The position numbers and the translations under genes were made by a program. Positions 11,832-13,037 of a DNA stretch of 28,264 bases are shown in pieces (the first letter of the stretch is position 1; each line of letters opens with the position of its first letter). Location of the stretch: positions 1 through 28,264 of the IMG/VR virus record IMGVR_UViG_3300029309_000267. The stretch is one strand, 5' to 3'. This stretch comes from a virus. The notes under the pieces were generated by a model. The model did no database searches. It saw only the letters and a program-made list of their open reading frames with translations, and had not been told where the DNA came from.

Positions 11832-11860
11832 ATTATACTATACCTCTAGCAGAATGTCAA
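11832..11860 (-). promoter_or_regulatory. Perfect consensus sigma-70 promoter (leftward)
   Basis: On the minus strand TTGACA (11860-11855) and TATAAT (11837-11832) are separated by exactly 17 bases, a full consensus match. Transcription would start at about 11826-11825, at the ATG of the 75-residue gene. It probably also feeds the terminase genes early, unless the downstream octamer takes over. Confidence 0.85.
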
Positions 11861-11906
11861 GTCATAGTTGTCCTTAACTTGAACCTTTATACCTTACAGT
11901 GGTATT

Positions 11907-11924
11907 AAAAAGGTCTAAAGACCT
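11907..11924 (-). terminator. Small intrinsic terminator upstream of the leftward early promoter
   Basis: AGGTCTAAAGACCT (11911-11924) is a compact hairpin; on the minus strand it is followed by TTTTT. It would shield the sigma-70 promoter at 11832-11860 from transcripts arriving from the control region. The stem is only five to six pairs, so strength is uncertain. Confidence 0.5.
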
Positions 11925-12308
11925 AATAACTTCAAAGATATCATTCACTTCGTTCATTTCATCTTTTTCGTTATTGTTTTACTTCGTCTCATCCCCCCTT
12001 GATGTTATAACCATGAGACCTCAAATGTAGTTTCTGCCAAATAAAAAAATGACTCACTACTTTTGAAGTCTGCATATAATACCATGCCTACTGAACATCA
12101 ATTTTACTGCAGAAGGTTGACTATGTATAACTGCTAACCGTATGTACGGAAATTGCCCTCTAACCAATCTAAGTAACACATTGTTCAGGCTATGTTACTA
12201 TCTCTGACCGCACCGCCTTTTAGGTCAAGTCATCTCAGTGCTTTTTAGGGTTCTGTATTAGTTTTGTATTAGCCATGTTTGCCTATCACATTTACTTATC
12301 ATCTGACC

Positions 12309-12345
12309 AAAAAAATCCCCCTTAAAAGATGAGTTAAAAGGGGGA
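12309..12345 (-). terminator. Strong intrinsic terminator (leftward)
   Basis: On the minus strand TCCCCCTT pairs with AAGGGGGA (eight pairs, 14-base loop), followed by seven T. There is no T run on the other side, so it acts only on leftward transcripts: the candidate RNA starting near 12460, and any read-through from the small-gene operon ending at 13038. Confidence 0.85.
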
Positions 12346-12460
12346 CCTAATTATACGATATTTAGGAAATCACGACATTTCGACTCGAACGAGTCTCTTT
12401 GTGCGATAGATAGGAACTAGTAATTGATTTTGGCAAATACGGCTACTTGAATTCCTATCC
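12309..12460 (-). ncRNA. Candidate structured small RNA of about 150 nt
   Basis: The minus strand has a GATAAATA octamer (12474-12467), a predicted start near 12460 and a strong terminator ending at 12309, with no reading frame between. The RNA would begin GGATAGGAA, which pairs perfectly with TTCCTATC (12459-12452 with 12416-12409) and ties its 5' end into a closing stem. Two hairpins then lie back to back: GACTCG/CGAGTC at 12382-12395 and GAAAT/ATTTC at 12366-12381. The terminator stem at 12316-12345 follows. Promoter, 5' stem, internal hairpins and terminator together make a coherent non-coding RNA unit. Function unknown; no known RNA family recognised. Confidence 0.55.
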
Positions 12461-12466
12461 AATAAT

Positions 12467-12474
12467 TATTTATC
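12467..12474 (-). promoter_or_regulatory. GATAAATA octamer before the candidate small RNA
   Basis: The minus strand reads GATAAATA with no -35 box (TGTCTC at the expected place). It points leftward, away from the rightward octamer at 12583, and the only downstream unit before a terminator is the structured non-coding segment. Confidence 0.5.
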
Positions 12475-12552
12475 AAAAAGATAAACTTCATGAGACAATC
12501 ATGAGTAAATAATATTGGCTTGTCCTAACGCCTACTTTAGATGTAAAGTATT

Positions 12553-12620: not shown

Positions 12621-13037
12621 ATGTATCAAATAAAATATACCAAACTATCAGGCACAAGAAACAGTGAAATAAACACTATATTCTGCAGAATAAACCGAGA
12701 TGACAAGCAGTTACTCATAAACATATTGCAAGATGCACTTTATGTTATAGGTGAAGCACAACATGAATTCACAGAAGTAGATACCTTTGTGACCAAACAA
12801 TTCAAGTGTTTTGGCAAGGGCAAATACAATAAAAAAGCACAATACTTGGGTGTTAATGCCATAATCAGTGGTATGCTGAAACAACACAAAAAAACCAAAG
12901 ACAAAGACTTCACGATACATCAGATCAAAAATCTAGAACATTTGTTTGGTGCTTTTGACAAAATCAACGGTGTTTTGGTTGCAAACAAATGGCCAGAAAC
13001 CATATATGCACCTGATATTGAATTTGTGGAAATTTAA
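12621..13037 (+). CDS. Unknown 138-residue basic protein
   Basis: ATG 12621 follows AAAAAGGAAA. The product is basic, with alternating strands and helices, two cysteines (FCRINRD and FKCFGKGKY) and a Lys-rich centre (MLKQHKKTKDKDF). It has no signal or membrane segment. It is transcribed alone, opposite to its neighbours, from the control region; its stop directly abuts the stop of the leftward gene at 13038 with no terminator between them. A regulator or replication-related role would suit the location, but no domain is recognised. Confidence 0.7.
   Translation: MYQIKYTKLSGTRNSEINTIFCRINRDDKQLLINILQDALYVIGEAQHEFTEVDTFVTKQFKCFGKGKYNKKAQYLGVNAIISGMLKQHKKTKDKDFTIHQIKNLEHLFGAFDKINGVLVANKWPETIYAPDIEFVEI

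Follow-up and report, generated by a model that had tools for sequence, protein, structure and literature searches.

A predicted structured late RNA gene beside the terminase genes of an uncultured marine phage lineage

Introduction

T4-type late promoters consist of a single box of 8 bp, which precedes the transcription start by about one helical turn, without any upstream element (PMC2988020); the box reads TATAAATA, or NATAAATA in marine T4-like cyanophages (cyanomyoviruses; PMC2984593). The octamer examined here, GATAAATA, resembles these promoters in standing as a single box before genes, with a start predicted about 6 nt downstream, in lacking conservation at −35 and in being used on both strands. 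Unlike them, it has a G as its first base in nearly all cases, and it belongs to a phage of probably about 27 kb in which a gp55-like sigma factor went undetected.

Phage-encoded intergenic small RNAs are, as a general kind, short and non-coding, with their own promoter and an intrinsic terminator. The predicted RNA that we describe below, RNA-A, shares these traits, and differs from that kind in having a stem that begins at the +1, a fast sequence turnover, a unit that can be inverted and no relative by sequence or in Rfam. The packaging RNA of phi29 (Phage_pRNA) is, like RNA-A, a structured phage RNA beside packaging genes; in contrast to it, RNA-A has no Rfam match, occurs in a phage with small and large terminase genes and displays nothing that points to a role in packaging.

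Results

The phage lineage and its genome

We analysed the linear IMG/VR virus record IMGVR_UViG_3300029309_000267, of 28,264 bases (hereafter, the window), which contains large terminase, portal, capsid and tail genes. By their large terminase (TerL), the closest cultured phages are Pelagibacter phages, with only 43–46% identity; the lineage comprises uncultured marine phages, with no close isolate found. The relatives used for comparison were contigs with similar large terminases, plus further contigs recruited via conserved patterns. The sequence of one of them, L008 (47,908 bases), is periodic, with a repeat length of 27,352 bases, as deduced from the same octamers recurring 27,352 bases apart and from its last 200 bases being present twice; because of this period, the genome size in the lineage of the window is probably around 27 kb.

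No replication gene or sigma factor appeared among the scanned proteins of the window, and the Sigma70_r2 domain had no match in ten contigs. Genomes of about 27–30 kb (the window, G001 and G003) carry T4-type late octamers without a replication gene or sigma factor having been found in them. Two scans of a genome collection for a prophage or a host gave zero hits, and searches for tRNA and tmRNA genes gave none.

Several other features of the window deserve mention. The plus strand encodes, at 12621–13037, a divergent conserved protein of 138 amino acids with a confident predicted fold; its relatives are all uncharacterised viral proteins, which provide no function. A perfect sigma-70 promoter, TTGACA-17-TATAAT, lies at 11860–11832 on the minus strand, upstream of a small ORF that precedes the small terminase gene (TerS). 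In addition, the element TACTTTACATCTAAAGTAGGCGTTAGGACAAGCC (12502–12547) recurs in part elsewhere, at positions 11336 of L003, 10257 of L008, 5302 of L012 and 6947 of L007.

A candidate T4-type late promoter

In the window alone, DATAAATA is not above chance (11 seen vs 8.1 expected), and the significance of the octamer comes from its position and conservation instead of from this count. Across seven contigs of the lineage, GATAAATA occurs 54 times, against a mean of 17.3 for permuted octamers. It was found between genes 37 times (3.2 for permuted octamers), and 5–70 nt before an ATG 25 times (1.9; the largest of 120 permutations gave 8). The seven contigs are related, so these counts are not independent, with sites recurring upstream of the same genes. 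A −35 element is absent, since the columns upstream of the box stay at or below 0.4 bit over 50 sites. Because it is an 8-bp box placed before genes, with no conservation at −35, GATAAATA fits a T4-type late promoter of the lineage, and this motif backs the proposal in the preliminary description of the locus that RNA-A has an octamer promoter of its own. The host or a helper could supply a gp55-type sigma factor for these octamers; dependence of the lineage on a helper phage is possible.

In pelagiphages HTVC111P, 026P, 202P and 112P (TerL identity 43–46%), GATAAATA was found 0 times before an ATG in the 52.8 kb examined. In these four phages, and in phage DSL-LC06, the annotated genes directly upstream of TerL are tightly packed.

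RNA-A in the window

The preliminary description had placed on the minus strand an octamer at 12474–12467, a start near 12460 coinciding with a perfect 8-bp long-range stem, two side-by-side hairpins and a GC-rich terminator with seven T, all without a reading frame. Most of this held on re-examination. The octamer GATAAATA is present at 12467–12474, with a predicted +1 at 12461, and is conserved as GATAAATAATTATTG in L002, L003 and L015. The 5′ arm of the closing stem (P1) opens at that very base, and the stem (GATAGGAA/TTCCTATC) is real and even longer than proposed, extending to 12 pairs, including G-U, between 12461–12450 and 12418–12407. Within P1, at 12430–12440, lies the hairpin-loop motif GUAUUUGCCAA, which corresponds to AAUGUUGCC(A)AA, UUAUUGCCUAA or UAGCC in relatives; the loop of the window has drifted to UAUUUGCC. 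As for the two hairpins, the one at 12382–12395 (GACTC-GTTC-GAGTC) is present, shows one double compensatory pair and is about 40 nt larger in L002 and L015, whereas that at 12366–12381 can be drawn but falls outside the minimum free energy (MFE) fold and is not conserved. The pre-terminator element CCTAAATATCGTA (12354–12366), conserved in the sequence of relatives, is followed by the intrinsic terminator at 12344–12309, which a terminator scan recovered as CCCCC...GGGGG at 12344–12317, with the conserved loop ACUCAUC, and seven T at 12315–12309. The predicted RNA would thus span about 153 nt (12309–12461, minus strand), and the only ORFs within it are unsupported ones of 24–30 codons with TTG starts.

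The fold of RNA-A (152 nt) has an MFE of −44.1 kcal/mol, vs −27.1 ± 3.7 for shuffled sequences (z −4.55, 0/200 as stable). The body alone, with the terminator removed, remains ahead of 150 of 150 shuffles in stability (z −3.4), compared with a z of −1.1 for its antisense, which 22/150 shuffles equalled or surpassed. No Rfam family reached its gathering score in the window and seven relatives, phage pRNA, 6S and GOLLD included among the covariance models that gave no match, and nothing credible appeared with E values up to 5; the best weak match on RNA-A was NsiR1, with 17.7 bits vs a cut-off of 39.

Conservation of RNA-A among relatives

We aligned the window, L002 and L015 by sequence only, with no structural input. 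In this alignment, P1 keeps 10 of 10 pairs, with 30/30 cells paired, three double compensatory changes and no breaks. The preliminary description had named a lack of compensatory changes in relatives as its refutation, and RNA-A passes that test. When the partner is slid by 1–3 columns, paired cells fall to 37–57%. The control by alignment shuffling is modest (21/500), with three sequences only, and the case for P1 is for this reason built on the alignment together with the wider set of relatives.

The plan of promoter, stem and terminator is found in L002, L003, L004, L008, L010, L096 and L133/L136, and in inverted orientation in L131 and L005; RNA-A was not recognised in L128, L130, L135 and L138, all of which have the larger RNA described below (RNA-B). 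The architecture extends to relatives with TerL identity down to about 59%. In distant relatives the body cannot be aligned by sequence, yet the order of parts is kept, from the octamer and a stem opening at the predicted +1 to a hairpin whose loop is of the UUGCC type and, last, a GC-rich terminator; the terminator hairpin is common to L002, L003, L004, L008, L010, L015 and L131. In each of the 12 units examined, which are partly non-independent, the first base of the best 5′ helix is the predicted +1; shuffle tests of P1 in single units give weak results for several relatives (L010, L005, G009 and G003). The sense body is more stable than 150/150 shuffles in 11 of 12 units, and the sense fold is better than the antisense in most units.

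Octamer sites other than that of RNA-A are mostly without a strong helix at the +1. Octamers in the TerS-TerL spacer of some relatives (G001 9999, G004 2061 and G009 10744) are followed by a helix of 10–11 bp from near the +1, perhaps a further structured leader.

The domain closed by P1 is 68–73% identical between the window and L002/L015, a figure close to the 72–75% of third codon positions in neighbouring genes (window vs L002), and the terminator segment is 90–95% identical. With the P1 region changing at about the synonymous-site rate and the terminator segment held, the body of RNA-A drifts while its pairing is kept. Comparison with relatives, which represent a small number of independent lineages, supports the closing stem, the promoter motif, the terminator and the independence of the unit and, with them, a single predicted small-RNA transcription unit of about 150 nt, as first proposed.

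A second, larger candidate RNA downstream

Directly 3′ of RNA-A we found a second candidate RNA, RNA-B, which was not mentioned in the preliminary description. Its putative promoter, the octamer GATAAGTA, lies at 12293–12300 on the minus strand, with a predicted +1 at 12287, and is kept as GATAAGTA in L001, L003, L008, L010 and L015. RNA-B would span about 383 nt (11905–12287, minus strand), opens with a micro-ORF, AUGGCUAAUAC..., has no long reading frame and ends with the terminator hairpin AGGTCTTTAGACCT (11911–11924), which is invariant in 13/13 contigs of the close group. Among the window, L002 and L015, RNA-B is 93% identical, vs 86% for TerL and 72–75% for third codon positions. In all relatives with contigs that extend that far, its place is upstream of the small terminase gene (for instance, 4119–4480 in L003 and 4908–5270 in L008). 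RNA-B had no match in Rfam.

The long RNA that relatives have at this site contains a pseudoknot. Its two sides covary across four versions: AACAGAA/UUCUGUU, UUAGCA/UGCUAA, AUCAACA/UGUUGAU and CUGACA/UGUCAG. Over four helices in the relatives there are 33 double-change cells, vs 12.6 in shuffles (0/500 as high) and 12 at most in slid versions; the helices were picked by eye from the sequences, and these controls are therefore the fair comparison. The core of RNA-B in the window differs from the pseudoknot form of the relatives, although the 5′ element, the promoter and the terminator are common to both, and its fold surpasses shuffles by a small margin only (z −2.1).

The AGGTCTTTAGACCT hairpin and the segment preceding it (11905–11957 in the window) also occur in many marine phage contigs (L077, L084, L085, L098, L123 and others), several of which have a TTGACA/TATAAT-like promoter ahead of the segment.

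The position of both RNAs raises the question of whether RNA-A is transcribed on its own account. RNA-A and RNA-B are adjoining and collinear in most relatives, and conservation within RNA-A is highest in the terminator and its loop, as would be expected if the RNA-A segment were an attenuated 5′ leader of the RNA-B/terminase transcript and its terminator a conditional stop. Nevertheless, RNA-B has its own octamer directly after that terminator, and TerS has a further one about 46–50 nt upstream. Moreover, L131 and L005 carry an intact RNA-A unit (octamer, stem and T-run terminator) on the strand opposite to that of RNA-B and the terminase genes, and due to this inversion we consider RNA-A a unit of its own and a leader very unlikely.

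Packaging sites are often upstream of the small terminase gene, and this is where the RNA-A unit is located. The conserved parts could accordingly be DNA elements (promoters, a terminator, perhaps a packaging site), with an incidental fold. However, the compensatory changes in P1 and in the RNA-B pseudoknot are unexpected for DNA sites, and most units fold better in sense than in antisense; we regard this explanation, too, as very unlikely.

What RNA-A may do

That RNA-A is a real structured late RNA gene is, from the comparisons above, very probable. Our preferred explanation, which on a blended judgement we regard as somewhat probable, is a free-standing late small RNA gene whose product is a base-pairing regulator. 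The octamer would start transcription at about 12461, the first base of the RNA would enter P1, hiding the 5′ end from decay enzymes, and the intrinsic terminator would set the 3′ end, resulting in a presumably stable RNA of about 150 nt. The working part is likely the hairpin with the exposed UUGCC-type loop, held open by P1, and the RNA would most likely pair in trans with late mRNAs. Base pairing as the mode of action is, by itself, a tentative proposal of fairly low probability.

The obvious complement of the loop would be AUGGCAA-type start codons, which capsid and tail-fibre genes have. The start of the capsid gene matches the loop AAUGUUGCC over 7–8 nt in G001, G002 and G009, and the capsid gene is the best, or among the best, in loop complementarity in three genomes; in the window, the best match is the tail-fibre gene and not the capsid gene. 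The loop is no better against AUGGCAA starts than any UUGCC loop, with 2–4 such genes per genome. Because these starts are common, the pairing is suggestive as a lead only, at about chance level. The loop could also pair with the 5′ end of RNA-B, as UUGCC/GGCAA and, in L004, UAGCC/GGCUA, a single co-change that is likewise suggestive.

Searches for a conserved antisense target in the phage, by longest complementary run and by RNAduplex, retrieved no consistent best gene across relatives; the RNAduplex search gave unrealistic duplexes with long loops. The longest complementary runs, of 9–11 nt, are about what we estimate for chance, and L005 alone stands out, with 13 nt. This lack of a consistent target would suit a protein-binding or decoy RNA, the main rival to a base-pairing regulator, in which selection acts on shape and not on sequence, and which would target RNA polymerase, an RNase or else a factor of the host or of a competitor. 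Such a role would also agree with the persistence of the fold, the +1 stem and the terminator in an RNA whose body sequence is replaced about as fast as synonymous sites. Conversely, the UUGCC loop and CCTAAATATCGTA are kept as sequence in several lineages, and RNA-A resembles neither 6S nor another Rfam family; we regard this rival as rather unlikely.

The phage encodes a capsid and carries T4-type late promoters, whereas neither replication genes nor a sigma factor could be detected in it. We also considered that RNA-A and RNA-B together make up a module of late RNAs, possibly switched on by, and acting on, a T4-like helper phage. We deem this unlikely.

Discussion

Our results describe a predicted late RNA gene that is supported by comparison and stands beside the terminase genes of uncultured marine phages. 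RNA-A keeps its architecture while its sequence changes about as fast as synonymous sites, and directly behind it lies a larger RNA that is pseudoknotted in relatives. The lineage appears to use a T4-type late octamer and a T4-type sigma factor was not found, which poses the question of who transcribes these genes; the candidates are the host, a helper phage and some factor of the phage that went unrecognised.
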